Positions 18,031 through 51,774 of a DNA stretch of 54,889 bases are shown here, piece by piece; within the stretch, counting starts at the first letter, position 1; each line of letters begins with the position of its first letter. This DNA is from a virus, in the IMG/VR virus record IMGVR_UViG_3300009100_000013, positions 1 to 54,889 of that record; one strand, written 5' to 3'. A model generated the notes under the pieces. The model saw nothing but the letters and a program-made list of their open reading frames with translations. It had not been told where the DNA came from and made no database searches. The translations under genes and the position numbers were made by a program.

Positions 18031-21000
18031 TTAATTGCCCAACAAACTTACAGCTATATCTTCTTGGCTAACGATAAGGGCTTTTTCTGAATATCCGACA
18101 GATATAACATCATTTGAAGAATTATATGTTGGGAAAATAATGCTGGCCGCTAAAACGCCATTCACACTGGTAACTGCGGTAATAATGTCACTTAATGGAA
18201 TGCTTTGACCGATTAAAGAAGAATTAACCACAGAGGCAATGGAGGATTTTACAGTATTCTCAATGTCCTGGAATTTAATTCCAGTTTTTAACCTTACACC
18301 AACTGAAATTTTAATTCTCTTAGGCAGAGGAGGTCGCAGATCAATGTAGGCTGATGTAGCCTTTATACCTGGATAAAGCGTGGAATTTTCTGGGTCACCA
18401 TAAACGACCTTGGTAGCTTCAGCGATTAATCCATTGTAATATGAATACCCATCTATACCGAAATTAGTATCCGTATCAAATTCTAATTTATTCAAAGCAT
18501 CAAACACGAATTCAAAAGAATCGCTTATTTTGCCACTCAATTGAGCAATATAATCACCGATAACGATATCTTCATAAATTGAATTAAGGGCGCTCGGGGC
18601 AGCTATCGCTACAACCGGTCTATAAAAATTACTGGTATCAGCATTGTAAAAATTAATATATGTAAATAAATTACCAGCTAAAGATGTTAATGAAACGGCA
18701 CTACTAAAATTACTATCTATGGTTAAAGTTTGAGTGCCAGATACATTTGACACAGTATATGAACCATCATTTGCAGAACCGAGAACATTTCCAGATAATA
18801 CCAATGAATCCCCTGGCAAGATTGAATCAGAGCTGTAGAATGATAAATTTGAATTGGCCGATAAGGTAGTTCTTTCTTCAATAGCGCTTGAATTTTCAAC
18901 CCAAAACCCAGTAGAAACGGCCCTTACAACTCTATAAGTTCCAGCGTTTTCCGCATTAAACACCGTACCTGGGGCAATAACCACAAAATCACCCTGAAGA
19001 ACATTGGTAAATACAGGGGCGGTTCCTACACCAGTATAAACAAAAAATGCGAAATTGCCGTGTTTTTCTACTTGTATTTTTGTAGTATTATCGCCAGAAT
19101 GAGTTCTGGCAGTATAAAAAGAACCGCCAGTGATGCTCAAAGTACTCGGCAATGAAATACTGGCTAAAGAAGAAGAACTTAATCCAACATTTTTTGACAA
19201 AGGTAGCGTAGAAGATAATTTTATCCAAGCACCAGAATAAAGCCCTGCCGAGGCCCCCGCCGTTGTTCTAATCAATTCGTAAGCTACAGGACTACCCACC
19301 GGAAGGGCTGTTCCTACGATTGTACCTCCAGCCGAATTAGCGGCTCCACCGTCAATTTTAACGGCTCCAGCAGTACCCACTATTGAAGAGGCAATTTGTA
19401 TTTTTCCACCTTGATCAGAAGCTTTTATTTCTCCTAAATTGGCTATGCCAGAAACTGCCGGTGAACCAAAAAATGCAACCACTTGTTTAGCTGTATGAGG
19501 AATTAACTTAAATTGTTCGCCAACCAAAGTATAAAGGCCATTGGTTAGGCTAAAATTCGCTTCCGTGGTAAATTGTGGTGAAGCGGTCAATGTGGCATTA
19601 TTAACCCAATTTTCTCCATCAGATAATTGAACATAATTTTGCGTTGCACCAGTAAAATCTCTAATAATTCTATTTACCAGGCCAGAACCAGATTCACCTA
19701 CACCTAAGCTAGCTGTTACATAATTATTAACATTTTGATTCATCCATGAAATCAAATTGTTTGCAGTAGCCGTAGCAGAAATTGGATAAAATTTCAAATT
19801 AGATGTTGCACCTAAAGTTTTGGCAACGCTTTCAGAAGTTGCACTTGCATTATAATTTGTTACGGTAAATGTCGTTTGAGAAACGTTAGTGACCCTAAAG
19901 ATTCCTTGATTACCGGCTGTAAAATTGGTATTTGGACCAATGTAGGCTATATCACCGGCAATTACCCCATCACTTACAAAAGTGGGCGTTGTACCAGAGT
20001 TCCAGAAATAAGTTGCATTAGGCGCCGAATATGATATAGTAAAAGAAGTTGTTCCATCATATGTTGCGGCTCTTTGACTATCAGATGATAGTAAAACAGT
20101 TAAATCAACGCCACCAGCAGTATTTCCAGAATTTAAAGTATATGAAAAGCTAGTATTTGGACCATAAGGATATCCCAAAAAGAATCTATATTGATTTCCA
20201 TCCGGACCGTATTTAGCAGATCTTACAATAAATCCGTTATTACTCCCATCGGCATCAACAATTGCTCTAGCCCTGGACCACAATTTATAATTTGAAAAGT
20301 CGAAAGCACCACCAAAAGAGGTTGTTAAGCCAATGTTACCCCCATCCACATCAGTGGCCGAAAATGAATTGGCCGTAGGACTTGGACTAGAGTTTACAGA
20401 AATAGTTCTGAAGGCATTTAATTTAATAGATTTTTCAACGGGAGAATTATCAAAAACAAGAAACAAGGAATCCGTGCCGGAAAAATCAAAGGCATTAGCA
20501 ATATAAGCTCTATCACCAACAAGCCTATCTTTTATAGTTGGTTTAGCAACCAATGTAACCGTAGTTGAACCAGATACGAGATGTCTAATCCCTGTCCAAT
20601 TATAAATATTATTTCCAAATCTATTGGTAGATGAAGTATTAAAGGTTTTAACAAATCCAGCCATTTTATCTGGCGAAATGGTTACAGAAGTGGTGCTATT
20701 GAATAAATAAGTAGTAGTTGATGTATCATTTACTGATACAATCAAAGGCGTTGTAAATAAAGGCGTGCCTATTTCTTTGTTGGCGCTTTCAACGAAGCCT
20801 ATGTGACTTGTTGTAGAAAAATCATCATCACCTATTGTGAAATCAAATGTTTGTCCATTTAAATCTGCTGTTAAAAAGTAAATTTGACCAACATCTTCAT
20901 TAAATGTGTTAGTAGTTAATCTGATTCTATCAGTATCGGCAACTTTTGACTCTATTCCAACTAATTTATTAGAATTAATTGTTTCGGTCCATTGAATTAA

Positions 21001-23286
21001 AGATTGATTGATAGGGCCTGTTCTAAAGTCTTGTACAATGCCATTGCTTCTTACAACTTTGAAGCTATCGTTATTAACCAAAGTGTAAGTTCCGCCGTTA
21101 CCGTTAGCCTTTTCTACATCAATATAAGTGCTAGCATCGGTATTACTAATTCTAAAATAACCTCTATTATCAGCATGAGTTATAGCTGTATCCCAAATAA
21201 TAGCCCAGTCACCGATGCTAGCATTAACGAAAGTGTTGGCCGCAGATGTGTATCTCCAAATGTTTGTGCCAACATTTGTAACAGTAATGTTTGCACCAGA
21301 AATAGCAGAAGTGCTGATTATTTCAACTTCAGAATCATTTAATGTAAATAAATTAGCCGTCGCAGCGACGTTGACTATGCCAGAAGTCAAAGCATCTGTT
21401 TGAACATAGGCTCTAGTATCTGATGTACCAGCTTGAAATGTATCACCAGTTTCAGCAGCATCGGTAAGAATAACTTGGCCCGTACCTCTAATTAAACTAT
21501 AATCAGAAGATTGACCTTGGCTCAATTCTACAGAAAACACCCCGCCGACAGTTACTAACGTTCCGCCAACAATCTCAATGCTAGCTAAATCACTTGCACC
21601 TTTATTAGATTTAATTTGTAGTATATTACCAGATACAACGCCTGTAGCCCCTGGAATCGTACTATTTACGGCATTTGCCCAAGCTTCTAGGGTGGCGCTT
21701 TGAGGGCTATACGGAGATAAATTACTTGAATCAAAAGTGTATGTAGCATCGGGCGTGCCATCAACAGATAAAATTAACGTGTAGCTAGAAGAAGATAGCC
21801 CCCAAGGATAAGCGATACTTTCAACCAACGCTTCTGAACCATCTTTGATTAATTCATCGTCATTTTTATAAAGTTTTAAGGTATACTGTCTTCCTGTTTG
21901 GAAATTGAATATTTCATTGGCATCGGTTCCGGAAATTGGAACGGCTATTTCCATATCCTCATTTGTATCAGCTTTTGCGCTTAAAACTATTTTAGTGGCG
22001 CCTTCGGCTGTTCTAGCTGTAAATAACAAATCTGAATTAGCATTGATACTGGCTACAATTTCATAGGCTGTAGCGCTGGTAATATCAAAAAAATCAGCAG
22101 AGGAGAATGAATGTTCAGATAACACGCCTCCCACTTGTAAAGCTAATTTTGAACCATCCGTCAATAAAAATGGTTGACTTGATAAAGAGGTGATTTGAGC
22201 TTTAACTAAGGCCGGATTGACCAATTGTAGGAATTTTTGTCCACCAACAGCGTTATCTAGAATAATTTCTTCGCCAACACCTGTATAAATTGGCTCGTAT
22301 GCCGTACCATCATCTACATATAAGATAGTAGGATCATTACCTGTAGCTTCGGCAATTGAGGCAGAAATTATTCTTTTTTGTTCGTCGGCAGCAACTAGGT
22401 TTATAACACCGTTTAAAATAGATTGATTTGTACCATTAGTATTGGTTGAATTTTTCTTTTTAATTCGGTCTCTTAAATCTATATCACCTTCTTCATCACG
22501 CGCGTTGGTAAAAGGAAATTCGTTGCTAACCGATAGATTTGGAAAAGGAGGTGATGGAAAATCAGTAATTGCATTTGATGGAACGTTGCCAGTAGTGCCT
22601 AGCGATTCACAAATGCAAGATACGCCCGTAACAGTATCTTCACCGTCTAGCAAAATGGCTGAATCTAAAATAGAAAATGAAACTGGGGCGTCGACGCCAA
22701 TTACACCAGTGTTAACCAAAGTTCCAGAGGGGATCGTTCTGTTACCGCCTTGAGCCAATATTACCGATTCACCTGTATTATGGAATTTATTGGTTGAAGC
22801 GTTTAAGGTTATTTTATAATAATTTCCTACAGCAACAATTGCTGTATAAGGAATTGGTCCTTCAATATTAACCGTTCCGCGTCCAATATATAATGAACCG
22901 GTACTTGGCCAAGTTGAAGCGTCATTTACATAAATAATTGACGAATTGGCAATAGGAGCTGGTAAACCTTGATAAATGGTAGTATTTAATTTTGTAAAGC
23001 TATTGTCAGTAATGGTAATTGGACCAGAGGATTTTGATGCAGGTAATCTTGATAAACCTCTTTGAGCAGCCAAAAGGTCTAAAATAGCTCCTTCTGCCCT
23101 ATCGATATCAATTGAATCAAGAGCTGCTAAAATGTCATTTGCAACACCAAAATCGCTTTCGGCTGCACTTTCAAGAATTGAAAGAAGCACTGAGCCACTT
23201 TCCAAGTCCGATAGACCCGCTTCGGATTGGACGCGACGAATCATTAAACCCAAGATCTGTTCATACGAACGTAATTCTAATGCCAT
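18031..23286 (-). CDS. Giant baseplate J-like protein
   Basis: A 1751-residue protein. The N-terminus (SYEQILGLMIRRVQSEAGLS, then an AAESDFGVANDILAALDSI helix and RAEGAILDLLAAQRGLSRLPA) is the conserved start of baseplate J/gp47-like wedge proteins. The last 110 residues (RPPLPKRIKISVGVRLKTG, helix FQDIENTVKSSIASVV, PLSDIITAVTSVNGV) match the family's C-terminal end. Typical members have about 300-600 residues, so roughly 1200 residues are inserted between, made of beta domains including four copies of the G-D-x-x-x-I...N-x-G module. It forms the wedge that triggers sheath contraction. The insert may carry decoration or adsorption functions. Confidence 0.87.
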   Translation of the reverse strand: MALELRSYEQILGLMIRRVQSEAGLSDLESGSVLLSILESAAESDFGVANDILAALDSIDIDRAEGAILDLLAAQRGLSRLPASKSSGPITITDNSFTKLNTTIYQGLPAPIANSSIIYVNDASTWPSTGSLYIGRGTVNIEGPIPYTAIVAVGNYYKITLNASTNKFHNTGESVILAQGGNRTIPSGTLVNTGVIGVDAPVSFSILDSAILLDGEDTVTGVSCICESLGTTGNVPSNAITDFPSPPFPNLSVSNEFPFTNARDEEGDIDLRDRIKKKNSTNTNGTNQSILNGVINLVAADEQKRIISASIAEATGNDPTILYVDDGTAYEPIYTGVGEEIILDNAVGGQKFLQLVNPALVKAQITSLSSQPFLLTDGSKLALQVGGVLSEHSFSSADFFDITSATAYEIVASINANSDLLFTARTAEGATKIVLSAKADTNEDMEIAVPISGTDANEIFNFQTGRQYTLKLYKNDDELIKDGSEALVESIAYPWGLSSSSYTLILSVDGTPDATYTFDSSNLSPYSPQSATLEAWANAVNSTIPGATGVVSGNILQIKSNKGASDLASIEIVGGTLVTVGGVFSVELSQGQSSDYSLIRGTGQVILTDAAETGDTFQAGTSDTRAYVQTDALTSGIVNVAATANLFTLNDSEVEIISTSAISGANITVTNVGTNIWRYTSAANTFVNASIGDWAIIWDTAITHADNRGYFRISNTDASTYIDVEKANGNGGTYTLVNNDSFKVVRSNGIVQDFRTGPINQSLIQWTETINSNKLVGIESKVADTDRIRLTTNTFNEDVGQIYFLTADLNGQTFDFTIGDDDFSTTSHIGFVESANKEIGTPLFTTPLIVSVNDTSTTTYLFNSTTSVTISPDKMAGFVKTFNTSSTNRFGNNIYNWTGIRHLVSGSTTVTLVAKPTIKDRLVGDRAYIANAFDFSGTDSLFLVFDNSPVEKSIKLNAFRTISVNSSPSPTANSFSATDVDGGNIGLTTSFGGAFDFSNYKLWSRARAIVDADGSNNGFIVRSAKYGPDGNQYRFFLGYPYGPNTSFSYTLNSGNTAGGVDLTVLLSSDSQRAATYDGTTSFTISYSAPNATYFWNSGTTPTFVSDGVIAGDIAYIGPNTNFTAGNQGIFRVTNVSQTTFTVTNYNASATSESVAKTLGATSNLKFYPISATATANNLISWMNQNVNNYVTASLGVGESGSGLVNRIIRDFTGATQNYVQLSDGENWVNNATLTASPQFTTEANFSLTNGLYTLVGEQFKLIPHTAKQVVAFFGSPAVSGIANLGEIKASDQGGKIQIASSIVGTAGAVKIDGGAANSAGGTIVGTALPVGSPVAYELIRTTAGASAGLYSGAWIKLSSTLPLSKNVGLSSSSLASISLPSTLSITGGSFYTARTHSGDNTTKIQVEKHGNFAFFVYTGVGTAPVFTNVLQGDFVVIAPGTVFNAENAGTYRVVRAVSTGFWVENSSAIEERTTLSANSNLSFYSSDSILPGDSLVLSGNVLGSANDGSYTVSNVSGTQTLTIDSNFSSAVSLTSLAGNLFTYINFYNADTSNFYRPVVAIAAPSALNSIYEDIVIGDYIAQLSGKISDSFEFVFDALNKLEFDTDTNFGIDGYSYYNGLIAEATKVVYGDPENSTLYPGIKATSAYIDLRPPLPKRIKISVGVRLKTGIKFQDIENTVKSSIASVVNSSLIGQSIPLSDIITAVTSVNGVLAASIIFPTYNSSNDVISVGYSEKALIVSQEDIAVSLLGN

Positions 23287-23321: not shown

Positions 23322-23335
23322 AGATTAAGTTTAAG
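23322..23335 (-). promoter_or_regulatory. Recurrent intergenic motif CTTAAACTTAATCT (site B)
   Basis: Identical over 14 bases to site A at 15713-15726. It overlaps the stop of the gp25-fusion gene and sits about 35 bases before the start of the giant baseplate J gene. The bases that follow (ATGATAAATCCC) are A+T-rich, as at site A. A promoter-like role is inferred from repetition and position. Confidence 0.45.
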
Positions 23336-25985
23336 TGCTAATACGGAAAGAAAAGGGCAAAACGCTGTTGTTTGCATTCACAGTAACGCCTCCGCTTAAA
23401 CGTAAAATAGGTCCTTGCAAATCTACAGAAATAAATTGAACTTCGCCAAATCTAGCATCGGAAATAATGGTAGAAATTGCTTGATCTTTGACTTCATTTG
23501 CCGTAATATCGGTAACGGCGGTTCCGGGTTGTAAACCAGAACCGTATGAAGGATGTCTCAATAAAGACCCCTTTTCAGTAATAAACTTTAATCGCAAAGC
23601 TTGCTGTAAATTGGCCATGCCACCAACAAGAACTACTTTGCCAGTTTTACTTAAAACAACATCATTATCGGAGCCAAGAGCGATATCCACGCCTGTAAAA
23701 TTGGATAATTGATCTATATCTTGAAAGTAATATGGCAATGGTCTCAATCTTGATGGAATATTATTTGGAGCATCATTTGAAGGAATGAATATGGTATTAT
23801 TAGAATTTACAGTGCCTTTGGCAAAATATTGAATTTTTGCCTCATCCCCCAATTCCAATATGGACAAATTGTCATCACCATCTACCGTTATCAAATAATT
23901 ATTATTATTCAATCTTTTAACATTTACAATAGTTCTAGAAAATGGTACCACAACTTCACTGCTTAAAATGATTTTTTGACCGATATATAACGCAGACCCG
24001 TCTTCAATAGAAATATTGTTACCATTGCCATTACTTAATAGACTTTGATAAACACCATCTTCATCAATAAAAGGTGGGGCCAAGCCGTTTAATAAAGCTA
24101 TTTCAATAGCTCTTCCAGAATCATCCAGATAGTACCGAGCTATTTCTTCTAAAGTTTTGCCATATAATACAGGAACGGCAATTTTACCAGCAGATTCACG
24201 AACATTTAATCCAGCAGATGAAGCTAGGCTGCCAATAAAATTAAATGACTCATTAATGGAATTGTCTCCGGCCACTTCAAAAGCTGTAAACTCATCTAAA
24301 ATTCTAACTAAATCTCGTATAGCTTTTAATAAATCCATCTCTTTTCGGGACGGTCTTCTAGTTACAGAAGGGTAATTAACGCTATAATAACGTAACGTGG
24401 TATCGGTAGTTGTGTCGCCCAAACCAAATGAAACGGCACAATCTCTAGAAAACTGCTCTGCAAAAGATTTCATTTTAACAAAGTCTTGTCTATTGTAGTT
24501 TCTAACCCTGGCGATTTCATCTGCAATCTTATTTTGTAAATTGGATGGTATATTAAGTAAATCTAAAGGAATTGCATCCAATAAAGGTCCGCCAAAATTA
24601 GAATCACTTAAGATTTTATCTAATAAAGGCGTAGAAGAAACGGGCTTGTTTACTGAACCGGCTGCCGGACCTGGTCTATCAGCAGCAACATTTGTACCAG
24701 TAGAGCCTGATTGGTCATTTGTGCTTAATAAAGCGGATGTAGTTTGATTGCCTTGAGTATCTGGGCTCCCTTGGTTTGTTTCACCCAAAAGGGTATTTAT
24801 AAAGTTTTTAGGAAACTGATTAAAACTTTTTTCAACAGATTTCCAAGCTCCTTCTACATCAGCTACAGCTGATAAGATCGGTCCTTTTGCCGCCAAAACT
24901 AAGTCACCCGGTAAATCAACTATAGTTTTGGCAATACCGGCCAAGTCTTTACCAATTAGAATCAATTCTCTAACAACATTAACCAATCTAGCAAAGTCTG
25001 CCCTAATGGCATTGCCTATATTAGCCACTTGTTGTAATATCTTTCTAACTCCTTGTAATGCTTGAATAATGCCTTGTATTTTACCTATATTCTCAAAAAT
25101 TCCTTGGGATAAAGATTTGTCCAAAGAATCTTTAGCTCCACCGCTAATTTTAATTCTTTTCCAAGCTTCTAATTGCATTGTGTAACGATATTCTAATGGA
25201 CTATCGGCACTGCGCTGCATTGTAAATCTTTTTGGAGTAATTAAATACGTAGTGTTATCTTTAGCAATATCCAGAGCTAATCGTAAATCGCGATTTTCTG
25301 GTCTTTTAGAAATATCAGCCCAAAGGTCTAAAAAATCCTTTAATTTGTGAAATTGAGCATAACCAGTGTTTTCCAACTCGGGTGTGTTGGTTGCACCAAC
25401 ACCACCAACCGCTTGAAGTTGACTTCTAACGTTTTGAACTTGTCTACCAACAGCTTGAGCTGAACGAAGTGTATTACCGGCTAATTCTCCTAAAATTCCA
25501 GAAGAATACGATTCTGCGCCCAATTGTCTAAATGGCAATACTCCGGTAGTACCGGCAATCGTTATCATTCGCAAAGGAGCGCCATTATTTTCAATTAAAA
25601 TGCCATCACTCAAAACGGTTGTTTGATTGGCAAAAATTGTATCAATACTCAAATTTTGAGGAGCTATTGGTAAAACGAAGATTGGTTGAGTTAATTGACC
25701 AGAAATTAATCCGTTTCCTAAAATGGAATATTCTGTATTATCAGAAGGAGAACCGGTATTTAAAGGATTTTTAACCTTGCTTTCGGAGGCTTTAAGAATC
25801 ATAAGCCTATAAGGCAATAATTTATTCCAATTATCTGATTTAAAAAGAAAATTTTGTGAAATCGGAAAAAATTCACTTTCTGCAATCTTTTGATTAATTG
25901 CATCTTTTATTACATTATAAATTTCTGTGCCTGATGCATTTTTATTTGCACCAAACGAAATTACTTTATTTTGTAATAATGCCAT
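23331..25985 (-). CDS. Baseplate protein: tail-hub/LysM-type region fused to gp25-like domain
   Basis: An 884-residue protein that appears to join two functions. Residues about 95-175 (FVLPIAPQNLSIDTIFANQT, then GAPLRMITIAGTTGVLP) resemble the N-terminal domain of XkdP/LysM-type tail proteins, and residues about 600-650 (PVLYGKTLEEIARYYLDDSG) fit a LysM-like unit. The last 114 residues (GGMANLQQALRLKFITEKGS, HPSYGSGLQPG, FISVDLQGPI) are the gp25/GpW-type baseplate wedge domain, normally a separate protein of about 130 residues. The middle (270-400) is helical. gp25 docks the sheath to the baseplate. In transcription order it precedes baseplate J, which agrees with myovirus order. Confidence 0.82.
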   Translation of the reverse strand: MALLQNKVISFGANKNASGTEIYNVIKDAINQKIAESEFFPISQNFLFKSDNWNKLLPYRLMILKASESKVKNPLNTGSPSDNTEYSILGNGLISGQLTQPIFVLPIAPQNLSIDTIFANQTTVLSDGILIENNGAPLRMITIAGTTGVLPFRQLGAESYSSGILGELAGNTLRSAQAVGRQVQNVRSQLQAVGGVGATNTPELENTGYAQFHKLKDFLDLWADISKRPENRDLRLALDIAKDNTTYLITPKRFTMQRSADSPLEYRYTMQLEAWKRIKISGGAKDSLDKSLSQGIFENIGKIQGIIQALQGVRKILQQVANIGNAIRADFARLVNVVRELILIGKDLAGIAKTIVDLPGDLVLAAKGPILSAVADVEGAWKSVEKSFNQFPKNFINTLLGETNQGSPDTQGNQTTSALLSTNDQSGSTGTNVAADRPGPAAGSVNKPVSSTPLLDKILSDSNFGGPLLDAIPLDLLNIPSNLQNKIADEIARVRNYNRQDFVKMKSFAEQFSRDCAVSFGLGDTTTDTTLRYYSVNYPSVTRRPSRKEMDLLKAIRDLVRILDEFTAFEVAGDNSINESFNFIGSLASSAGLNVRESAGKIAVPVLYGKTLEEIARYYLDDSGRAIEIALLNGLAPPFIDEDGVYQSLLSNGNGNNISIEDGSALYIGQKIILSSEVVVPFSRTIVNVKRLNNNNYLITVDGDDNLSILELGDEAKIQYFAKGTVNSNNTIFIPSNDAPNNIPSRLRPLPYYFQDIDQLSNFTGVDIALGSDNDVVLSKTGKVVLVGGMANLQQALRLKFITEKGSLLRHPSYGSGLQPGTAVTDITANEVKDQAISTIISDARFGEVQFISVDLQGPILRLSGGVTVNANNSVLPFSFRIST

Positions 25986-31753: not shown

Positions 31754-32431
31754 TTATGCGGCCTCTTTTTGTATAGTTAAAACACCTAAAATTATTAGTT
31801 TTGCAATATACTCTTGCTTTTCTCTCGTATAATCTTTTTTATTAGCTCCGCTTTTAATGATATTTTCTGATTCCCACATTGGTTGCAAATTTCTATAATT
31901 AAAACAAGCTCTTTGTTCTTCGGGATTGGTCAAATCAAATGCCGTACATGGTATTATATGATCAATGTGCCAGCCACCTTTACCATAATTATACCAAGTC
32001 ATATCTAATTGAAATAGTGACTCCAAATACCTAGCTGCAAAATCAGCAGTGCAGCCTAACAATTCTATTGTTTTGTACGCCTTACTGCCATATTGTAATT
32101 TTATTGCCATTCCAATTCTAGATCTGAGTGTAATGTTTATTCGGTACACAGGATCTTCTTTTGAACGCTTTTTTGCATACTCAGTAGTATATGTTGGATT
32201 ATTTTTACGCCATCTTTTATTTTGTATCCTTTTTTTATCAGACCGCTTGTATCTTTCTTTACTTTTCTCTTTATGATGTTCGGAATTGTCTTCATACCAT
32301 TTTTTGCTAATCACTCTACGACATATTTTACAAACAGAATCTTTATAGGATCTCTTTTTATCTTTAAAGGCAAATTCTTCACTACTTTTCTCAATTTTAC
32401 ATGCATTACATATTTTTGTTAATTTTTCCAT
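31754..32431 (-). CDS. HNH homing endonuclease (free-standing)
   Basis: A 225-residue protein. The N-terminus has two C-x-x-C pairs (C8/C11 in CNACK, C34/C37 in CKICRR) for a zinc site, then a very basic helical region (KKRIQNKRWRKNN). The HNH core is GWHIDHIIPC (H155, D157, H158), FNYRNLQPMW (N179) and ESENIIKSG (N190). It fits exactly between the second chaperone gene and the tape measure gene with a one-base gap on one side and none on the other, so it was added without breaking either. Such genes spread by cutting unoccupied alleles; a target near this junction in related phages is likely. It is more A+T-rich than its neighbours. Confidence 0.87.
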   Translation of the reverse strand: MEKLTKICNACKIEKSSEEFAFKDKKRSYKDSVCKICRRVISKKWYEDNSEHHKEKSKERYKRSDKKRIQNKRWRKNNPTYTTEYAKKRSKEDPVYRINITLRSRIGMAIKLQYGSKAYKTIELLGCTADFAARYLESLFQLDMTWYNYGKGGWHIDHIIPCTAFDLTNPEEQRACFNYRNLQPMWESENIIKSGANKKDYTREKQEYIAKLIILGVLTIQKEAA

Positions 32432-40514: not shown

Positions 40515-41531
40515 AATTTCTTGCCAATGAAGACCAGCATCATTCAAGGGACCGGGAGTATTAGAATTCCCATTTCTATCGTACATTCCAAAACCTCTGG
40601 GCACACCAGGGCTTTGGGATTCATTATCAAAACACTGCCACCAAATAGCCCCTTTTATTCCAAGGCTTTCAGCAACAGAAATAACTTTATCCATTAGAGC
40701 GGGAACGTTTAGATTATGAGATGTAAAAGAACTTTCATCTTGTGGCCAAGTAAATTCCCCTATATAAATAGGAATTGTATTGCCCAAAGCATGTCTAATT
40801 TTTCTAACAGTTTCTGTTAAATTGGCCTCTATTGCAGCTTCTGTGCCGGCTTGGTTTGTCCATGTATTAATTGATTCATAAATGGTCAATGAAATTAAAT
40901 CTGGCATAGCCTTTGATAAAACGTCTCTATACAAACGATAGCCAAAATTATCCAAAACTCTATTCATTTCAATTGCTAATTGTACGGTTGATGTTGTACT
41001 AGTGGCTAATTGCGCAGCTCTAACCGCTTCTATTCTTTTTTTCATAAAAGCCGCATATCTACCTAATTTAGTAGAATCTAATGTAGCTCCAGGATCAACG
41101 TTGCCCAATAATTCCCAATCACCTTCGGCATTTTGTAAAATAAAAGTTTTATTGCTATATGTGCTTAATAGATGTACACACAAATTATATATTTCAGTAT
41201 ATTCGTTAGCTAAATTAGTTGGGGTTAAATCGGTTAGAGGTGAATTGACGGTATTTGCAAAAGTATATGTGGTAATAACAATTCTGGGCAAAGTAATGTC
41301 TCCCAAAATATGTACCATAGGCGCCGTTTGAGCTAATTCCGTTAAATTAGTTGGAGTTGAACCAAAATTTTGATTAGGATAAACCGTGGCATATGTGGGG
41401 GTTAAATATATTTTGGCAGTATCGAAACCCAAATCTCTAATGGTGTCTGTTCCATAAATAGCAATGTCTTGTTCTGTTGTTCTAACAGGATACTGCGGAG
41501 CAGCGTGAGCACAACCATACCAAATGCTCAT
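40506..41531 (-). CDS. Glycoside hydrolase-like TIM barrel (clan GH-A type)
   Basis: A 341-residue protein with barrel-like alternation. It starts DIRDLGFDTAKIYLTP-like segments typical of cellulase-type enzymes. FILQNAEGDWELL (about 130-142) places a glutamate, E136, at the end of a strand where clan GH-A has its acid/base, and IPIYIGEFTWP (253-263) places E259 at the usual nucleophile site. IKGAIWWQCFDNES near 293 matches the last barrel strand with aromatic subsites. It lies among beta-helix and fibre genes, so it is probably a virion-associated depolymerase or a degenerate glycan-binding barrel. Signal peptide absent. The substrate is unknown. Confidence 0.72.
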   Translation of the reverse strand: MSIWYGCAHAAPQYPVRTTEQDIAIYGTDTIRDLGFDTAKIYLTPTYATVYPNQNFGSTPTNLTELAQTAPMVHILGDITLPRIVITTYTFANTVNSPLTDLTPTNLANEYTEIYNLCVHLLSTYSNKTFILQNAEGDWELLGNVDPGATLDSTKLGRYAAFMKKRIEAVRAAQLATSTTSTVQLAIEMNRVLDNFGYRLYRDVLSKAMPDLISLTIYESINTWTNQAGTEAAIEANLTETVRKIRHALGNTIPIYIGEFTWPQDESSFTSHNLNVPALMDKVISVAESLGIKGAIWWQCFDNESQSPGVPRGFGMYDRNGNSNTPGPLNDAGLHWQEILT

Positions 41532-43192
41532 TAGGTTATCGCCTTTAATCGATAAGTTGTGCCATCCGTTGTGGTTTTAACTATTGCCCAACTACCGGCA
41601 GTTAAAGTTACAGAAGAATTGGCGCCACCACCATTTATGGTACCACCAGAAGCAGGAAATACCGCTGCATTATTGGCCCCTAAATTAGCTATTATGCAAC
41701 CACCGCCCCCAGCAGCATATGCACGCAAAATAACCGAATCGCCGTGAGAAGCCACGGTATTAATTGAGGTAAATTGCCAACCGCACGTTACAGCACTACC
41801 TTGCCCCCCGCCAGCATGAGCCGTTATACCTATTGCAGCAGAATCACCCAGATCCAGGTTTTGTCCGAAAGATTTTAATATACCACCACTCGTTACGCCA
41901 TTTAATCCAATTAATTCATCAGAAAAACGTAAAGCTCCAGAGCCCCAATATACGAAATTACCTCTGGTAGCATATGTACCTAAAGCAACTGTGGCCCAAT
42001 CTACAGAGTTTCCTTCTAATGCTAAGGGACCTGACGTGGATGTAATATCAGAACCGGTTAGAACATATTGTCCGCCGCCAGAAACTGAAACACCGTAAGT
42101 TACACTGGCGTTAGTTCCAGTTAAAATGCCAGAAAATTGATGTAAAGCTTGTAACACAACGGGTGTGGCAGTGCATCCTGTGGCAGAAACATTCATGGAC
42201 ACATAGTGCGAATTCATTATTTTAACGGCATTTCCACTGCAAGCTTTAGCGTTAATATTGCCATTAACATATAAATAATTTGAAATTTCAATTCTTGAAT
42301 TATCTTCTACGTTTTGATCACAAGTAACTCTTGTACCGCCCAATAATTCAGCGTATGATTGACTACCGCCACTTAAATAATTATTTTTAAAAGTCAAATT
42401 TCCAGAATCATAAAAACCGATTCCAGAAAATCCTGTAGCAACTAGATTACAGCCATATATTTCAGAATTTACATTTGATTGTCCAAAAATACCGTATAAA
42501 GCAGACGCAGAAGAAGGTTTAAATCCTCTCATAATAATTCTACAGCTATTTGAAGCCAAACCGATACAAAATGTGCTAGAGCCATAAGTTTGGCTAGCCT
42601 GAGTAACGAATGTAACGGGGTCTACTATTTGAAAAGTGGTCGTGTTATCCAAACCGGTCAAAGCATCAATTGAAATTGTGTCAATGGTATTATCTTTAAT
42701 TGTTCTTTGACAGGGACCGCCATTTGTAGATATATTGGCAGCAGTATCAGCATAAAAGCCTCCGCCGCCAGTTATTAGTAGAGTTTTACCTCGTAAATCA
42801 CTAACGGTCCAGTTTGCAGCGGCTGCCGGTTTCTTTACGGCTGTACTTGTAGTACCTGATCCAGCGGTTCCAGAATTTACTCCTGTGGTTACACTAGAAA
42901 GAGCGGTAGTTCCTAAAAGATATAATGAACCAGAGCCAACAAAGCTATCAACCATGAAACCAGTAAAAGTTCCGCTTTGATTTGTAATTCTATGATTAAA
43001 ATTACCTAAATTTTTAGGCAAAGAGGATATCGCGCCCGATATCGTTGCAAAAGGAAAGGCGGAATAATCACCACTAACTATTGTGGTTGGCCTATTTACA
43101 GAAACGTCAGAACCAGTAACTGAAACTGCTAAAGTAACTGCCCCAGTAGCTGTTGTTGGGAAATTCGTAGATGGGATAAAAAAGGAAGTCAT
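41531..43192 (-). CDS. Tailspike-like right-handed beta-helix protein
   Basis: A 553-residue protein. The middle (about 210-400) consists of short regular strands with stacked Asn, Cys and Gly turns (CRIIMRGFKPSSASALYGIF, SEIYGCNLVATGFSGIGFYD, GNLTFKNNYLSGG), which is typical of pectate-lyase-like helices in tailspikes. The N-terminus is Thr/Ser-rich. The C-terminal part is Gly-rich (GGTINGGGANSSVTLTAGSW) and ends with KTTTDGTTYRLKAIT, like a fibre tip or particle-binding segment. No catalytic residues can be assigned. It overlaps the glycosidase gene by one base. It is a likely host-glycan-binding or degrading spike. Confidence 0.7.
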   Translation of the reverse strand: MTSFFIPSTNFPTTATGAVTLAVSVTGSDVSVNRPTTIVSGDYSAFPFATISGAISSLPKNLGNFNHRITNQSGTFTGFMVDSFVGSGSLYLLGTTALSSVTTGVNSGTAGSGTTSTAVKKPAAAANWTVSDLRGKTLLITGGGGFYADTAANISTNGGPCQRTIKDNTIDTISIDALTGLDNTTTFQIVDPVTFVTQASQTYGSSTFCIGLASNSCRIIMRGFKPSSASALYGIFGQSNVNSEIYGCNLVATGFSGIGFYDSGNLTFKNNYLSGGSQSYAELLGGTRVTCDQNVEDNSRIEISNYLYVNGNINAKACSGNAVKIMNSHYVSMNVSATGCTATPVVLQALHQFSGILTGTNASVTYGVSVSGGGQYVLTGSDITSTSGPLALEGNSVDWATVALGTYATRGNFVYWGSGALRFSDELIGLNGVTSGGILKSFGQNLDLGDSAAIGITAHAGGGQGSAVTCGWQFTSINTVASHGDSVILRAYAAGGGGCIIANLGANNAAVFPASGGTINGGGANSSVTLTAGSWAIVKTTTDGTTYRLKAIT

Positions 43193-44530: not shown

Positions 44531-47368
44531 TTACGCTGATTGAGTGACCTTGGAAATATCAAGTGTTATGGCGACAAAGTAGAGCGCGCCGGTTATATAC
44601 GCATTTACTCCAACGGACATGATCGGCCCAGAAACCGTTACGACAGCGCTGTCATAACCAGCTGGTGCGCCATCACTTGGGGAAATGAGTTTATTTTGCA
44701 AATATTGACTCATTTTCGCTTGCAAAAATGATAAACCCACTGTTGCAGAAACGTCAGCTACGGCTTGGCCTACTACGAAATTATCAAACGAAAAGGCCAA
44801 ATCCAAAGCCATGAAGTCAGCACTGTACATAACCTGCAAACTATTAAAGACGAAATTATCATCTTTACCATAAGTTGTTTGGTCACTAACGAATCTGAAA
44901 CCACCACCATTTGGAGCTTCAATTACTAGTAAACCAGCAACTAGAGCTTGTTCCAATTGACCATAATTACCAGGATTAAATCCGCTTGGATTAACAATTC
45001 CAGTAATGTTGGCATATTTTCTGGTAATGCTACGATACAAACCAACCGCTTGCATTGAAGCTGCCTCTACCGCAAGCATCCATGGTTGATATGTTTCAAT
45101 AACACCGCTGGCACTAACGTTTTTGACATCCTGGAATGTCAAAGCATACCGTGCTGATGCTAATTGAGCAGCAGCTTCTTTAGCTTCAGCAAATGTGCCC
45201 TTAAATGAACCAACCCCAAGACGATTCTTCCGGCGTTTAACTTGACCAGAAAGCGAAACACAGTGACTCTTTAGATAAGCATTGATCCCATCAATTGTAT
45301 AGGTTGAACTTGCGTCAGTTAAACCATCAGCAATATCATCGGTAGCATCTTGGCTAAAGAGAGGTACAATGAAATTGACATCAATATCTTCCATTGCATC
45401 TACAGCGGCAGCGACAGCAGCAGCCGTACTACCGCCCTTAACACCACCAACTAAAAGAGTGGCTTGAGCAGTTGATTCTGGTAAACCAGCCAAGGCAACA
45501 TCGGTAAAGCTCATAACGGCTGAGCCAGCAACGGCTTGTTCAAAATCATATGCATCGCGCTTAATGCGGCAAGGATATGATTCGGCAGATACTGAGGAAG
45601 CAGCTGTAAATAAACCCTGGTCCAAAACATCTGGACTTAGAACACCAGCAGCAGCCGAAGGCACAGTAGCTTTATAACCAGTTTGCTGATTAATATAACT
45701 TACCAAATCATTAATAGTTGGGTAATTGGCTAAAGTGATACTAAGGTTACTGCCCGAACCACCGGTAACTACTGTGGATAGAAGGGTGCTTGAAACAGTT
45801 ACTGAACATGTGGTGCCAAGATACCCTAATTTTAAGGCAACATTACCACCAATATCAGAGAAACTTTCTTGGGTATTATCGCTGGAACGATTAATACTCA
45901 GAGTACATTCGTAATCCGTGCCAGTTAATACGTAAGGTGTGGCTGATGTAGAAATGAATGTGGCTGAGGTTGTAGTAGCAAGATTATAGAATGCTCTAGC
46001 AATACCTAAAGCAGCCACACCATCAGAAACTTCGAGCAACGATTGCTGGCCGTCAATAAACGGTCTAATGACAATTAAATTGCTATTTGGAGTTGCACCT
46101 ACAGCACCTGAAGCTACGGTCACAGGTGAACCATTGGTTAATCGAGCCACGGTTAAAGCAGAATCGGTTACCGCGCTAATTGAATAGAAACCAACATTGG
46201 CATCGCCTGTACCGGCTAAAGTGGAGCCAGAAGGAATGTACAATGAATCGCCTACGCGGGGGCGTGTGACTGAAGTTGTAGCTGGAAATGTACCCGCAGA
46301 TAGCGTTAAAACAGCCGAAGAACCACTAGCTGTAAGAGCTATGGTGCTCGTGGTTAAGCTGACAAAACTTCCGCGATTAACACCAGATTTATCCGTAAAC
46401 TTAACTGGCTGATAAACAACCAAATCATTTGCTGGAGTGGCCGAAAACGTAGTTGAAACATTTACAGGAGCATTTACACCCGTAGTGGCACTAGCATTAT
46501 TTAATTTTACAGCGCTAAATTGAGCTAAAGTAGTTGTATTGGTGGCGCTTGTAATAACCCAGTATCCAGCATTAGCTGTTGAGCTACCAACGAAAACGGA
46601 AGCTAGGGGCAATTCAAGGACATCGCCGGCAACGGGGGTTGCACTAAATGTACCTGAGGCTAATGTAAAGGTAGCCGCATTACCAGAAGCTGTAACGGCA
46701 CTTAGGGTTACGCCGGCATTTGTGGAGAATGAAACTCTGTCCGAACCACCGGTAACCAAAAAGCTACTGGTTTGTAAACTTGAGGTTTTTGAAGCTAAAG
46801 CCGCAGGGGATGTACCAGCAGTAATGGTATAAGAAACAGCGCTTCCGCCATGTTGGCGATAAATTAATTGATAAGTTACGCCTGCTGGAACATATGAAAA
46901 GTTACCAGTTGTTGGTTCAACGGCGCTTGTGGCTGTATCGATATCCCAGGAAAGCAGATTACCATCTAAGCCTTGAAAAGCAGCAGATAAGGTACCGAAT
47001 GAACTATAGCCTAAGGCTGGAATTGAAGAAGTTGCACTTGTAGAACCATTTGTTTTATAAAGATAAATTCTGGTCGGGGCGCCTACAATATTCCCATCAT
47101 TTGAAGCTGTTACGGCAGCTCGGAAAGCATCAACTAGTCTACCGCTGCCATATTTGGCAATTACATCAGCTAACTGATCTGGAGTGAAAAAGTTGTCTGA
47201 AAACACTTCGCTTGCAGCGCTCGTCGCTGGACCAGCATCAGCTTCGCCAATCAATGCTATAATTCCACTTGCCGAAAGGCCAGCAACCGGAGTACGAACA
47301 TTGATTGTCGTGAAAGCTGATGGAACAATTACGGTGCCCACCTTGCTATCTGTAAATTTAATCGCCAT
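44531..47368 (-). CDS. Tail sheath protein (enlarged)
   Basis: A 945-residue protein. The start (FTTINVRTPVAGLSASGIIA, ALIGEADAGP) and the last 300 residues (KGTFAEAKEAAAQLASARYA, GVIETYQPWMLAVEAASMQA, SITRKYANITGIVNP, QALVAGLLVIEAPNGGGFRF) are sheath features, with the C-terminal arm SVGVNAYITGALYFVAITLD. Common sheaths have about 400-700 residues. Here two copies of a beta module (GDVLELPLASVFVGS...ANAGYWVIT and GDSLYIPSGSTLAG...ANVGFYSIS) are inserted in the first half, probably facing outward. It precedes the tube gene. A small hairpin and a GGAG site lie in the leader. Confidence 0.87.
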   Translation of the reverse strand: MAIKFTDSKVGTVIVPSAFTTINVRTPVAGLSASGIIALIGEADAGPATSAASEVFSDNFFTPDQLADVIAKYGSGRLVDAFRAAVTASNDGNIVGAPTRIYLYKTNGSTSATSSIPALGYSSFGTLSAAFQGLDGNLLSWDIDTATSAVEPTTGNFSYVPAGVTYQLIYRQHGGSAVSYTITAGTSPAALASKTSSLQTSSFLVTGGSDRVSFSTNAGVTLSAVTASGNAATFTLASGTFSATPVAGDVLELPLASVFVGSSTANAGYWVITSATNTTTLAQFSAVKLNNASATTGVNAPVNVSTTFSATPANDLVVYQPVKFTDKSGVNRGSFVSLTTSTIALTASGSSAVLTLSAGTFPATTSVTRPRVGDSLYIPSGSTLAGTGDANVGFYSISAVTDSALTVARLTNGSPVTVASGAVGATPNSNLIVIRPFIDGQQSLLEVSDGVAALGIARAFYNLATTTSATFISTSATPYVLTGTDYECTLSINRSSDNTQESFSDIGGNVALKLGYLGTTCSVTVSSTLLSTVVTGGSGSNLSITLANYPTINDLVSYINQQTGYKATVPSAAAGVLSPDVLDQGLFTAASSVSAESYPCRIKRDAYDFEQAVAGSAVMSFTDVALAGLPESTAQATLLVGGVKGGSTAAAVAAAVDAMEDIDVNFIVPLFSQDATDDIADGLTDASSTYTIDGINAYLKSHCVSLSGQVKRRKNRLGVGSFKGTFAEAKEAAAQLASARYALTFQDVKNVSASGVIETYQPWMLAVEAASMQAVGLYRSITRKYANITGIVNPSGFNPGNYGQLEQALVAGLLVIEAPNGGGFRFVSDQTTYGKDDNFVFNSLQVMYSADFMALDLAFSFDNFVVGQAVADVSATVGLSFLQAKMSQYLQNKLISPSDGAPAGYDSAVVTVSGPIMSVGVNAYITGALYFVAITLDISKVTQSA

Positions 47369-48187: not shown

Positions 48188-49123
48188 TTATGTTTCAATT
48201 GTTGCATAAATAGTGTCATCATCGCTTTTTACTAAATTAATTTCTTGAGAAACGCCTTCAACATATTCAGATAGTTGATCCACCCAACGGACCTCGGAAT
48301 ACCCGGTCATCGTAATTGTTTTAAAAAAGAAATTTTCGGGACTTTGGCTTTCGTCTAATTGAATTTCTCCACTAGATACATTGCCCAAACCTATATTAAA
48401 TTTTTCCAGTAGGTATTGACGTCTTTGTAAAAGAATGTATAATACTATAGAATGTAGCCAATAAAGCTCTCCGGGAGAGCCAGAAACACAACAATTTATT
48501 TCATATGTTTCGTCAAAATTAGCTATATGTCTCATGACCTTAAGGACAGAATAGGCGGGAACAACGTAAGAATCAGTAAAGTTATCTCTGATATCCGTAG
48601 CTATTTTAAAAGTGGTGTCTGAGACAATTTGTGTTATTGGATAGGTGGTATTTGAAGATGGGCTGTATAAGCCTTGATTTACGAAAATTAACTCTGTATC
48701 AAAACCATCGGGTAAGGTGACTATACCGGTTTCTAAATCGTAGCTTGGAGAAAACGGTCCAACGGAAATGTCCGGGGTAGACACTAAGTCTTGTTTTTCT
48801 ACAGTTTCATTTTCCGGGAATACAGAAGGATCTATCTCACCGAGAGCCGCTTTACCGGTAGATTCTGTGGAGTTTTTGACATTTACAGTGAGGCACGGAT
48901 AAATTGGGTGGTCCATCCTGTAAACGCTCAACGCCGGAATTTCCGTTTTTAAAAACCATTTCTTGGCTCTGGCTATTTCTTCTTTTCCAAATTCCGTGGC
49001 CAAATTAGAGGCTTCTACAGAAGCAAAAATAAAATCCAAATGGTAAGGATTTTGACGAAGATATTTAATACCTTCAGTAATCGCTTTAATTAAAATTAAA
49101 TCTGATTGGGATATTCCATTCAC
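48188..49123 (-). CDS. Neck/tail completion protein
   Basis: A 311-residue protein from a GTG start. The late segment SPGELYWLHSIVLYILLQRR, then YLLEKFNIGLG and FFFKTITMTGYSEVRWVDQL, is typical of neck or tail-completion proteins near the sheath, in which a helix with paired arginines is followed by beta strands. The first half includes TGIVTLPDGFDTELIFVNQG, a beta domain with a D-x-x-T-F-K turn (SDTTFKIAT). It lies in the usual place between connector genes and the sheath, now separated from them by the plus-strand island. Assignment by pattern and context. Confidence 0.65.
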   Translation of the reverse strand: MNGISQSDLILIKAITEGIKYLRQNPYHLDFIFASVEASNLATEFGKEEIARAKKWFLKTEIPALSVYRMDHPIYPCLTVNVKNSTESTGKAALGEIDPSVFPENETVEKQDLVSTPDISVGPFSPSYDLETGIVTLPDGFDTELIFVNQGLYSPSSNTTYPITQIVSDTTFKIATDIRDNFTDSYVVPAYSVLKVMRHIANFDETYEINCCVSGSPGELYWLHSIVLYILLQRRQYLLEKFNIGLGNVSSGEIQLDESQSPENFFFKTITMTGYSEVRWVDQLSEYVEGVSQEINLVKSDDDTIYATIET

Positions 49124-49127
49124 ACAG

Positions 49128-49146
49128 CAAGGTTATGTTCACCTTG
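49128..49146. promoter_or_regulatory. Inverted repeat CAAGGT-7-ACCTTG overlapping a promoter
   Basis: A perfect six-base inverted repeat with a seven-base spacer lies in the divergent gap between the neck gene and the methyltransferase gene. Its right arm shares TTG with the TTGACA -35 box at 49144. Such a site could be an operator for a repressor, for the methyltransferase itself, or a short hairpin. No separate controller gene is seen in the island. Confidence 0.45.
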
Positions 49147-49172
49147 ACAAATACACACGAGGATTGTAGTAT
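49144..49172 (+). promoter_or_regulatory. Sigma70-like promoter for the restriction-modification island
   Basis: TTGACA at 49144-49149 is a perfect -35 box. After 17 bases comes TAGTAT at 49167-49172 (four of six matches to TATAAT). An overlapping TATAAA at 49170 is the alternative -10. Transcription would start about six to ten bases before or at the ATG at 49182, so the message would have almost no leader and no ribosome binding site is seen. This is the clearest host-type promoter in the window. Confidence 0.6.
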
Positions 49173-49181
49173 AAACAGCGA

Positions 49182-50333
49182 ATGATTAACGATTATGATA
49201 GTTATATAAAGCAATGGACCGAATCCGGTACCATTTATTTACCAAATAGCGAGGAAAAATTTTTATCCGAGCAACTAATTACTTATATAGGAAACAAAAG
49301 AAAATTATTGCCATTTATAGATGCATCTTTGTCAAAGATTTTTAAAAAATTAAATAAAAAAATGAACATTTTCGACGGTTTTAGCGGATCTGGGGTATGT
49401 TCTAGGTTGTTTAAAAAATATTCCAAAACGCTTTTTGTAAATGATTTGGAACTTTATTCAAACATTATAAATAAATGTTATCTTACAAATTTATCTCAAA
49501 TAAATTTAAATGATATCTGTGCAAATATAGATTATCTTAATTCAATAGCTGCCAAACCAATAAACAATGGAATAATTAAAGAATTATATAGTCCGCTAGA
49601 TGATTTTAACATTAAAAAATCAGATAGGGTATTTTATACAAATGAAAATGCCAAAATAATTGATACTATAAGACAAGAAATAATAAGATCTTTTATAAAT
49701 CAAGATTATTTATATATAGCTCCTTTATTAATAGCCTCTAGCATAAATGTAAACACCTCTGGAGTTTTTAAGGGTTTTTATAAAAATTCTAAAACAGGGA
49801 TTGGTCAATTTGGCGGAAATGCTAAAAATTGTCTAAAAAGAATTACTGGAAAAATTAAATTAGAATATCCTATCTTTTCTAATTATGAATGTGATATTAA
49901 AATATATCAACAAAATACTAACGTATTGATAAAATCTTTAAAAGATTTAGATGTTGCTTATTATGATCCTCCTTACAATCAACATCCATATGGGTCTAAT
50001 TATTTTATGCTCAATGTAATAGCCGATTATAAAAAACCAGAAAATATATCAAATATAAGCGGAATTCCAAATAATTGGAATAAATCTCTTTATAATAAAA
50101 AGAACGAGGTTGAGCAATGTATAGATGATTTGGTAAAAAATACAGATTCTAAATTTATAATAATGTCATATAATAATGAAGGTTTTGTGACAAAAGAGAA
50201 TTTTTTAAAAATACTATCAAAATATGGAAGGGTTACAATAGAAGAACAAACTTATTCAGCTTTCAAGGGATCTAGAAATTTTAAAAATAGAAGCAATAAT
50301 GTAAAAGAATTTTTATTTGTATTGGAAAAATAA
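49182..50333 (+). CDS. DNA adenine N6-methyltransferase, D12 class
   Basis: A 383-residue protein. LITYIGNKRKLLPFI (about 32-46) and FDGFSGSGVCSRLF (64-77) give the SAM-binding motif of D12 adenine methyltransferases. YYDPPYNQHPYGSN (260-273) is the catalytic D-P-P-Y loop. The region between is helical and less conserved, as for a target recognition domain. It lies alone on the plus strand, followed at once by an EcoRI-family nuclease gene, so it is probably the cognate methylase, protecting GAATTC or a similar site. Its DNA is clearly more A+T-rich than the neighbouring structural genes. Start at ATG 49182, with a possible leaderless message. Confidence 0.9.
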   Translation: MINDYDSYIKQWTESGTIYLPNSEEKFLSEQLITYIGNKRKLLPFIDASLSKIFKKLNKKMNIFDGFSGSGVCSRLFKKYSKTLFVNDLELYSNIINKCYLTNLSQINLNDICANIDYLNSIAAKPINNGIIKELYSPLDDFNIKKSDRVFYTNENAKIIDTIRQEIIRSFINQDYLYIAPLLIASSINVNTSGVFKGFYKNSKTGIGQFGGNAKNCLKRITGKIKLEYPIFSNYECDIKIYQQNTNVLIKSLKDLDVAYYDPPYNQHPYGSNYFMLNVIADYKKPENISNISGIPNNWNKSLYNKKNEVEQCIDDLVKNTDSKFIIMSYNNEGFVTKENFLKILSKYGRVTIEEQTYSAFKGSRNFKNRSNNVKEFLFVLEK

Positions 50334-50334
50334 T

Positions 50335-50973
50335 ATGCCACGAACATCACAATCAGAATTTTCACCTAATAAATCCAATCACTCTCACAATCTATTAGAG
50401 TTAGCAACAAAGGATTTATTACATTTTTTAAAAAATAAATACGGCTCTGAAAGAATTACTCACAGAAAATACTTATCAAAAAAAGAAATAAATGACGAAC
50501 TAAATAAAATGGACCCCAGCTTTGGAATTTCATTAGAAAATGAAAACTCATCAATTAAACCTGACGGAGGTTTGATATTTATAGATGACCATCTGATCTT
50601 GGTATCTGAAATGAAAAAACAAGGAGTCAATAAACAAAGGTTGCGCTCGGGCGAGAAAAAGCAATCCATGGGCAATGCAATAGAAAGAGCTTTTAAGAAT
50701 GCTCGTGAAATAGAGAATTACTGTATTAACAAAAAATATTTTCCATATGTAGTATTTGTACACGGTTGTGACTTTGAACCCCAAAGTTCAATGAGAGATC
50801 GAATATCTTCTGCAAATCTTAATTCTCCTATTAATAATACTTATGTTAAAGATATCGGTCATCACAAAAGAACATCTCTTTTCATCCAGGAAAAACCATA
50901 TACAAGAATGTTTTTATTTAATATATTAAAAAAGATAGCCGGGGAATCTATAGAAATTTTAAAAATTACTTAA
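50335..50973 (+). CDS. EcoRI-family type II restriction endonuclease
   Basis: A 212-residue protein from ATG 50335 (GGAAAA upstream; a TTG at 50317 in the same frame overlaps the methylase). It aligns by eye with EcoRI: SSIKPDGG (D77), then ILVSEMKKQG (E92, K94), matching EcoRI's SSIKPDGG and LVAEAKHQG with catalytic Asp91, Glu111 and Lys113. GNAIER (113-118) is identical to the EcoRI recognition segment around Asn141 and Arg145. HFPYV-like YFPYVVFVHG and DRISSAN-x-x-x-PIN follow in the same order. It is shorter than EcoRI (277 residues), lacking parts of the ends. All key residues are present, so it is probably active. Recognition of GAATTC is inferred. Confidence 0.92.
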   Translation: MPRTSQSEFSPNKSNHSHNLLELATKDLLHFLKNKYGSERITHRKYLSKKEINDELNKMDPSFGISLENENSSIKPDGGLIFIDDHLILVSEMKKQGVNKQRLRSGEKKQSMGNAIERAFKNAREIENYCINKKYFPYVVFVHGCDFEPQSSMRDRISSANLNSPINNTYVKDIGHHKRTSLFIQEKPYTRMFLFNILKKIAGESIEILKIT

Positions 50974-50985
50974 ATTTATAATTAT

Positions 50986-51774
50986 TTATTTAATCGTTAA
51001 CTCTAAATTCTTCAACTGCTCGTCTAAAAACTTCGAGTATGAGGTCTCAATCCATTTATAAATTTCGGAAAATATATCAACGCCTTTTCTAGCCGGTATC
51101 TTCCATTCGGCTTTGCTGTTCTCACTCAAAGTGCGAAATGTAAAATATTGTCTGTCAATCGTTTTGTTGCCACGATTATTAGTCCGTTCTGTTTGATATA
51201 CAGTTAAATTATCCAAAATGCTTTTACCAGAAACACTACCTTTATACATAGAATTAACTTTTTTTATTAAAGCTGCTGCCCTAGGTTTTTCTGGAGTTGA
51301 AATTATAGGAGAACCTTTGCTATTGACAATAGGTTTGGTTAACGGCAATTTATTTTCCTTCATTGCTGTTTTAATTTCTCTTACTAAATTTTGTTGTTTA
51401 TCTTTCATTCCAGGAGTTTCTTTCCCGGGATGTTTAAAAGGTATTCTTACGTATTTTCTGCCTTTTAAATGAGTTTTTCTCATATCAATTGCAGGAGCGC
51501 CGTCTTCAATAAATAACGCAGGCTCTTCAAGTATAATCAAATAACTGTCAAAACCGCCAAGTTTATTGCGCTCAAAGTGTAAATTAGATAAATATAAATT
51601 TCGTTCCCTGTCACTTTTTAATTTTTGATTAGCAAGTGCAACGGCCTGGTCAAAACAAGCCATAGCCAATCTCTCGATACTTTGATTAATTGGTTTTTTT
51701 AATTCTTGTAATTGTTTAACCGTTTTAATTAAAGGTTCAAGATTTAATGTAACCTTGATATCATTTGAGGCCAC
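50986..51774 (-). CDS. Head-tail connector protein (HK97 gp10-like)
   Basis: A 262-residue protein from a GTG start with a strong AGGAGG ribosome binding site. It begins with a helical segment (EPLIKTVKQLQELKKPINQS), then FIEDGAPAIDMRKTHLKGRK and YVRIPFKHPGK. The end is TFRTLSENSKAEWKIPARKG followed by IFSEIYKWIETSY. Such an arrangement, a Lys-rich loop then a W-x-x-P-x-R-K-G turn and final helix, is seen in neck or tail-completion proteins related to HK97 gp10. It converges with the endonuclease gene 12 bases away. The role would be closing the head-tail joint. Confidence 0.7.
   Translation of the reverse strand: MASNDIKVTLNLEPLIKTVKQLQELKKPINQSIERLAMACFDQAVALANQKLKSDRERNLYLSNLHFERNKLGGFDSYLIILEEPALFIEDGAPAIDMRKTHLKGRKYVRIPFKHPGKETPGMKDKQQNLVREIKTAMKENKLPLTKPIVNSKGSPIISTPEKPRAAALIKKVNSMYKGSVSGKSILDNLTVYQTERTNNRGNKTIDRQYFTFRTLSENSKAEWKIPARKGVDIFSEIYKWIETSYSKFLDEQLKNLELTIK

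Follow-up and report, generated by a model that had tools for sequence, protein, structure and literature searches.

The window under study, i.e. the whole stretch of DNA that was analysed, is one IMG/VR virus record of 54,889 bases. Profile matches to a sheath, a Baseplate_J protein and other virion genes indicate that the record codes for a contractile-tail phage and is a myophage fragment. Its principal features are as follows:

18031-23286: Baseplate_J protein (profile match)
23331-25985: baseplate protein (profile match)
44531-47368: tail sheath (phrog_279)
48188-49123, minus strand: flanking phage gene g311 (phrog_1000), intact, divergent from the methylase
49124-50985: inserted cassette of 1,862 bp, at a site that is empty in relatives
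49128-49146: CAAGGT-N7-ACCTTG, a perfect inverted repeat that shares bases with the -35 box of the candidate promoter and lies just upstream of g311
49144-49172, plus strand: sigma-70-like candidate promoter TTGACA-17-TAGTAT (consensus match only, 10/12)
49182-50333, plus strand: D12/alpha-class N6-adenine DNA methyltransferase of 383 aa, with FDGFSGSG and DPPY motifs (PF02086)
50335-50973, plus strand: EcoRI-family Type II restriction endonuclease of 212 aa (PF02963, PDB sequence match, predicted fold)
50986-51774, minus strand: flanking phage gene g262 (phrog_16819), intact, convergent with the nuclease

The sheath aligns over its full length with that of the 170-kb Myxococcus phage Mx1 (39% identity), and given this likeness the window probably derives from a genome considerably larger than 100 kb. 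Sheath homologues are present in 19 viral contigs recovered by a sheath-based scan. A search confined to tyrosine integrases found none in 14 records, namely the window, itself a fragment, and 13 relatives, some of 154-172 kb. The carrier can be described as a large, probably virulent myophage. Within its structural operon there is also a minus-strand Endonuclease VII/HNH-like gene (31754-32431; phrog_1035, 4.6e-16), which is possibly another mobile element.

The nuclease ORF is intact, with its ATG at 50335, one base past the methylase gene. Sequence profile analysis recovered the Pfam EcoRI family PF02963 (E 3.5e-28; score 98.8 bits, cut-off 22), and a phmmer search against the PDB retrieved EcoRI with E 1e-22. 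An AlphaFold model of the protein (pLDDT 90.2), when compared with the PDB using Foldseek, gave five matches with E<0.001, every one of them to EcoRI, with TM-scores of up to 0.81/0.66. In the alignment with EcoRI the catalytic residues D77, E92 and K94 correspond to D91, E111 and K113, and the recognition residues N114, E117 and R118, within the GNAIER segment at residues 113-118, correspond to N141, E144 and R145. Across a 73-sequence homologue alignment the three catalytic residues and N114, E117 and R118 are invariant, the GNAIER segment as a whole varying at I116 and its last positions as the form GNAxER allows; R156, at the position of EcoRI R203, is at least 90% conserved in the same alignment. 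The arm regions near residues 100-110 and 148-154 are reduced relative to EcoRI, which is the main reason for the smaller size of the protein, and its sequence carries no sign of inactivation. The first-pass annotation had recognized the EcoRI catalytic set and GNAIER in this protein, and had proposed a structure prediction against EcoRI and a profile search against restriction enzyme families as checks on that call; both checks, together with the PDB match and the alignment, bear it out. MunI, which recognizes CAATTG, has an AATT-core site and is similar in length to the window nuclease; a MunI-type nuclease was rejected as a candidate, MunI being absent from the profile matches and from the 50 fold matches listed.

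The preceding methylase ORF is likewise intact, ending with a TAA at 50331-50333. It matches the Pfam D12 family PF02086 (3.3e-15, 56.9 bits, cut-off 22) and, over nearly its whole length, the PADLOC Type II MTase profile MTase_II (4.3e-109). These matches, and the single base separating the two genes, agree with the initial description of a D12-class adenine methyltransferase directly before the nuclease. Its AF2 model has a pLDDT of 85, and the Foldseek list for this model is headed by E. coli Dam and DpnM, with E 1e-5 and low TM-scores of 0.31-0.51. A Pfam search gave no match in the protein to the M.EcoRI-type signature PF13651, and comparison with the sequences of solved structures returned no significant match.

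In EcoRI the GNAIER segment reads the AATT core, and judging from the conserved recognition residues the nuclease very probably cuts a palindrome with this core, GAATTC being the best guess for the predicted site. The phage DNA outside the island retains 11 GAATTC and 814 AATT sites. With so many AATT-core sites in its DNA, the phage would need the methylase if the nuclease is active. The 11 GAATTC sites compare with 20 expected; the observed/expected ratio is 0.71 in relatives without the system versus 0.61 in carriers. Deduction of the recognition site from site avoidance was rejected, and the site counts give no specificity signal, since the relatives without the system deplete GAATTC too.

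Both genes lie on the strand opposite to the flanking phage genes, and the G+C content of the island is 24-30% versus 33-46% in its surroundings, in keeping with its initial depiction as an A+T-richer, opposite-strand element. The island falls exactly between the intact g262 and g311. Among the 10 relative loci in which both flanking neighbours could be placed, eight have the homologues of these two genes either overlapping by 4 nt or no more than 9 nt apart. EcoRI-like nucleases and D12 methylases were both absent from the 13 relatives, three of which are records of 154-172 kb. The pair represents a cassette inserted between virion genes that abut in relatives. Given that the 13 relatives lack the nuclease, the methylase and a tyrosine integrase, it counts as an accessory element, inserted in a lineage that is probably virulent; known from a single contig and absent from relatives, it may be recent and transient. 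A transposon- or integron-like insertion was rejected, as neither terminal repeats nor a target-site duplication was found at the cassette ends. The first-pass annotation had also raised the worry that a bacterial RM locus might have been misjoined into the phage contig, and the composition of the island, unlike that of the rest of the window, would fit such an artefact. However, the genes on either side are intact and follow one another in a single conserved phage operon, two breaks exactly at their junction would be needed, and the nearest clade of the methylase is phage-derived. Since relatives have the two flanking genes side by side, a misjoin is very unlikely, and we assign an assembly artefact a close to negligible probability. 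The original view of a complete EcoRI-type pair within a phage structural cluster holds, with both genes intact and virion genes on both sides.

The putative site at 49144-49172, a consensus match, supplies a candidate for the promoter with which the cassette had been credited. It is positioned just upstream of the methylase ATG, so that the transcript would be near-leaderless if it is used. TTGACA-17-TAGTAT is the only exact copy in the window, and consensus sites as a class are no commoner there than in shuffles. The inverted repeat CAAGGT-N7-ACCTTG is similarly the only perfect copy in the window, with copies having up to two mismatches occurring at chance level; as a speculation, it is a possible operator or a hairpin in the g311 leader. 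Antisense reading of the structural operon through the cassette could limit cassette expression.

Relatives were obtained by alignment-based and sheath-based scans; a single-sequence pattern scan of viral contigs with the nuclease, g262 or g284 found nothing. Relatives of the methylase occur on 10 viral contigs at 46-54% identity, and in nine of these an EcoRI-like nuclease is encoded within about 1 kb of the related methylase. Gene order differs among the carriers, being REase-MTase, convergent or, like in the window, MTase-REase, and so does the position of the cassette, which in several cases adjoins phage nuclease and replication genes. The carrier contigs examined are real phages: G003 codes for a terminase, a topoisomerase II and a DNA polymerase, G004 for a sigma factor, a primase, SbcC and tail fibres, and G001 and G008 together show matches to a baseplate wedge, a primase, SbcC/D and a ribonucleotide reductase. 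One contig (L006:9219-11104) has a same-clade methylase but no EcoRI-like nuclease; the 235-aa gene upstream shows a treble-clef zinc-finger-like match and possibly encodes a nuclease partner of another kind. In a 13-kb viral contig (L047:1562-7521) the nuclease-methylase pair is present twice as inverted copies, which may reflect a palindromic artefact of assembly or a genuine inverted repeat.

A genome-wide scan recovered 397 EcoRI-like loci in bacteria and archaea, of which the best 80 were analysed. Across all sources, with bacteria and archaea represented by these best 80 of 397, the nuclease partners are M.EcoRI-type in 44 loci, D12 in 42 and beta-class in 18. The 42 D12-paired loci, whose bacterial and archaeal part has the same scope, are non-redundant, mostly bacterial and spread over more than 12 bacterial phyla; their usual order is MTase-then-REase, with the genes abutting or overlapping. 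Being common in bacteria, as these 42 loci attest, the pairing of a D12 methylase with an EcoRI-like nuclease is not a novelty of the window phage. The suggestion that the pair is a new combination must accordingly be given up in this general form, and what stands of it is the distinctive union of a nuclease from the EcoRI/RsrI side of the family with a methylase of a phage clade. In the literature searched, no paper describing the EcoRI-like/D12 pairing was found. A fourth partner class, the N6_Mtase type, is present in phage contigs, either fused or adjacent to the nuclease. Five candidates for solitary EcoRI-like genes (L048, L049, L051, L054 and L072, with L048 identical in sequence to L049 and L072 assessed from its sequence) were rejected as such, each being fused or adjacent to an N6_Mtase-type methylase. 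In L049:5848-7101, and also in L048 and L072, the nuclease and the N6_Mtase-type domain share one 417-aa frame, and this domain is widespread in phages as a separate gene (448 records). Several viral contigs (L069, L055, L057, L065 and L067, and also L056, L059-L063 and L066), one of them of 258 kb, combine EcoRI-like nucleases with M.EcoRI-type or beta-class methylases.

Phylogenetic analysis placed the window methylase in a 12-member clade with 11 viral members (SH-aLRT 96). In the nuclease trees, which are quick trees with SH-aLRT support only and a long-branched window row, a branch with 98% support (96% in a reduced tree) has the window and L047 on its EcoRI/RsrI side, outside the compact EcoRI/RsrI cluster. 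Keeping the nucleases of the phage-methylase clade monophyletic was rejected by an AU test (p 3.6e-8), for a group chosen after the methylase tree had been seen and with the window row long-branched. This disagreement between the nuclease and methylase trees suggests reshuffling. The pairwise identities also suggest reassortment of the R and M genes: L007 and L011 share 93% identity in the methylase and 71% in the nuclease, and L007 and L008 share 75% and 80%, respectively. The dN/dS of the nuclease in close phage relatives is 0.16-0.20, and such purifying selection is consistent with a kept function.

These histories bear on two alternative explanations. In the first, the pair is a selfish passenger that spreads horizontally and kills cells losing it, with little benefit to the phage, as might be expected from its sporadic occurrence and absence from the 13 relatives, the varying position and gene order among carriers, the A+T-richness of the island and the discordant R and M histories. 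It is hard to see, however, what post-segregational killing would achieve in a lytic cycle, and the phage-dominated methylase clade and the purifying selection on the nucleases suggest long residence in phages, so that we regard this proposal as decidedly unlikely. The second holds that the methylase is useful as an anti-restriction device against EcoRI-type hosts and that the nuclease is a hitch-hiker or inactive. Orphan methylases are indeed the common case in phages (PMC4176335), and L006 provides an instance within the same clade, but the window nuclease keeps all its catalytic residues, phage nucleases are under purifying selection and the nuclease is kept in nine of the 10 methylase-bearing contigs, leaving this possibility with only a slim chance of being correct.

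Restriction pairs of this kind usually belong to bacteria, as weapons against viruses. The first-pass annotation had considered Type II restriction enzymes with intact active sites to be rare in phage genomes, and such rarity is supported by a survey that reported nine RM systems in 831 phages and regarded complete systems as nearly absent from non-temperate ones (PMC4176335). A tblastn search with the window nuclease (E<0.01) matched one of 50,697 annotated phage records, that of a Helicobacter prophage in which the EcoRI-like gene is split. Apart from minimal, remote homologues in Synechococcus phage S-RIM2, no intact EcoRI-family gene was detected in the approximately 50,700 annotated phage records. 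When viral protein models were searched by fold, the S-RIM2 protein A0A1D7RVF5 was recovered (E 2.9e-9). In the S-RIM2 genome (L175, NC_020859.1) the gene SWTG_00030 (39820-40359), annotated as hypothetical, encodes a 179-aa protein with PDGG, EGK and GNAIER motifs, and a D12 methylase (41515-42369) is encoded two genes downstream, with a 351-aa gene between them. SWTG_00030 scores 35 bits against the family profile; sharing phage and length with A0A1D7RVF5, and showing a weak tblastn match, it appears to belong to the same protein family. The weak match recurs in 65 Synechococcus phage records, and all 40 among the matches listed are S-RIM2.

Taken together, we consider it reasonably probable that the locus is a complete Type II RM cassette, taken up by a myophage and predicted to be active chiefly against competing DNA; the activity of the pair, its site, the timing of its expression and its benefit are what we infer. 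Under this proposal the myophage would have acquired a cassette with its own promoter at a gene junction of the virion operon. The methylase, as the first gene, would mark the replicating phage DNA by N6-methylating the site of the nuclease, and the nuclease, as the second, would cut unmarked DNA, mainly that of phages infecting the same cell along with other mobile DNA, and possibly also the chromosome of the host. The nucleases of marseilleviruses are able to cleave competing viral DNA (PMC7253447), and by analogy with them the exclusion of competing DNA is the favoured benefit. Alternatively, an active system might serve mainly in host takeover, with the unmethylated host chromosome degraded for nucleotides and shut-off. 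Chloroviruses package nucleases and cut host DNA within minutes (PMC7019647); moreover, the cassette lies in a virion operon and several other carriers have it beside phage nuclease and replication genes. On the other hand, the marseilleviruses, whose system is related to the chlorovirus one, leave host DNA undegraded (PMC7253447), and the opposite-strand island with its own putative promoter shows no link to late virion expression; host takeover as the main role thus seems unlikely.

Beyond the exclusion of competing DNA by this one cassette, there might be a long-lived, phage-borne EcoRI-type branch in virulent myophages, with genes swapped within it, serving as a weapon against co-infecting phages or the host and as a counterpart of the chlorovirus and marseillevirus systems; we offer this tentatively, as somewhat less than an even prospect. 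Such a branch may extend to the minimal EcoRI-fold protein of S-RIM2, with its GNAIER segment and a D12 methylase two genes away. The presence of an EcoRI-family system in several unrelated myophage contigs, together with a phage-dominated methylase lineage and nucleases under selection, would open the restriction of other phages or of hosts by phages to direct testing, and with its remote homologue the cultured cyanophage S-RIM2 is available as an experimental model. The loci also provide EcoRI-like nucleases that are compact and partnered by a different methylase, useful for studying the co-evolution of specificity and partner.

The window pair resembles EcoRI and RsrI in fold, PD-(D/E)XK residues, GNAxER, the arginine at the R203 position and the pairing of nuclease with methylase. 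It differs in the length of the nuclease (212 aa versus 277 aa in EcoRI), in its D12/alpha methylase, where those systems have M.EcoRI-type (PF13651) or beta/M.RsrI-type enzymes, and in being carried by a phage. The bacterial D12-paired systems, such as that of the Paracoccus marcusii plasmid pCP157_17 (L016) and those of many MAGs, have the same two families, the same order and a compact nuclease; in contrast to the phage-borne window pair they reside in bacteria or plasmids, the Paracoccus nuclease is 26% identical to that of the window, and the tree places the window nuclease apart from the main D12 nuclease clade, to which theirs belong. The temperate phage NrS-3 encodes the Type II system R.Nph3I/M.Nph3I, which is active in vitro (PMC10734518), and phage-borne Type II restriction is therefore not in itself new. 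Like the window pair, this is a complete phage-encoded Type II system, but its site is RGATCY, its nuclease was formerly annotated as BglII-like and its carrier is temperate. The chlorovirus and marseillevirus systems are likewise virus-encoded Type II pairs, with a prokaryotic origin shown for that of the marseilleviruses (PMC7019647, PMC7253447); they differ in belonging to viruses of eukaryotes and in having other specificities, and the chlorovirus nuclease is packaged in the virion. Against this background, what is new is the repeated occurrence of EcoRI-family systems in myophages, within a methylase lineage dominated by phages.
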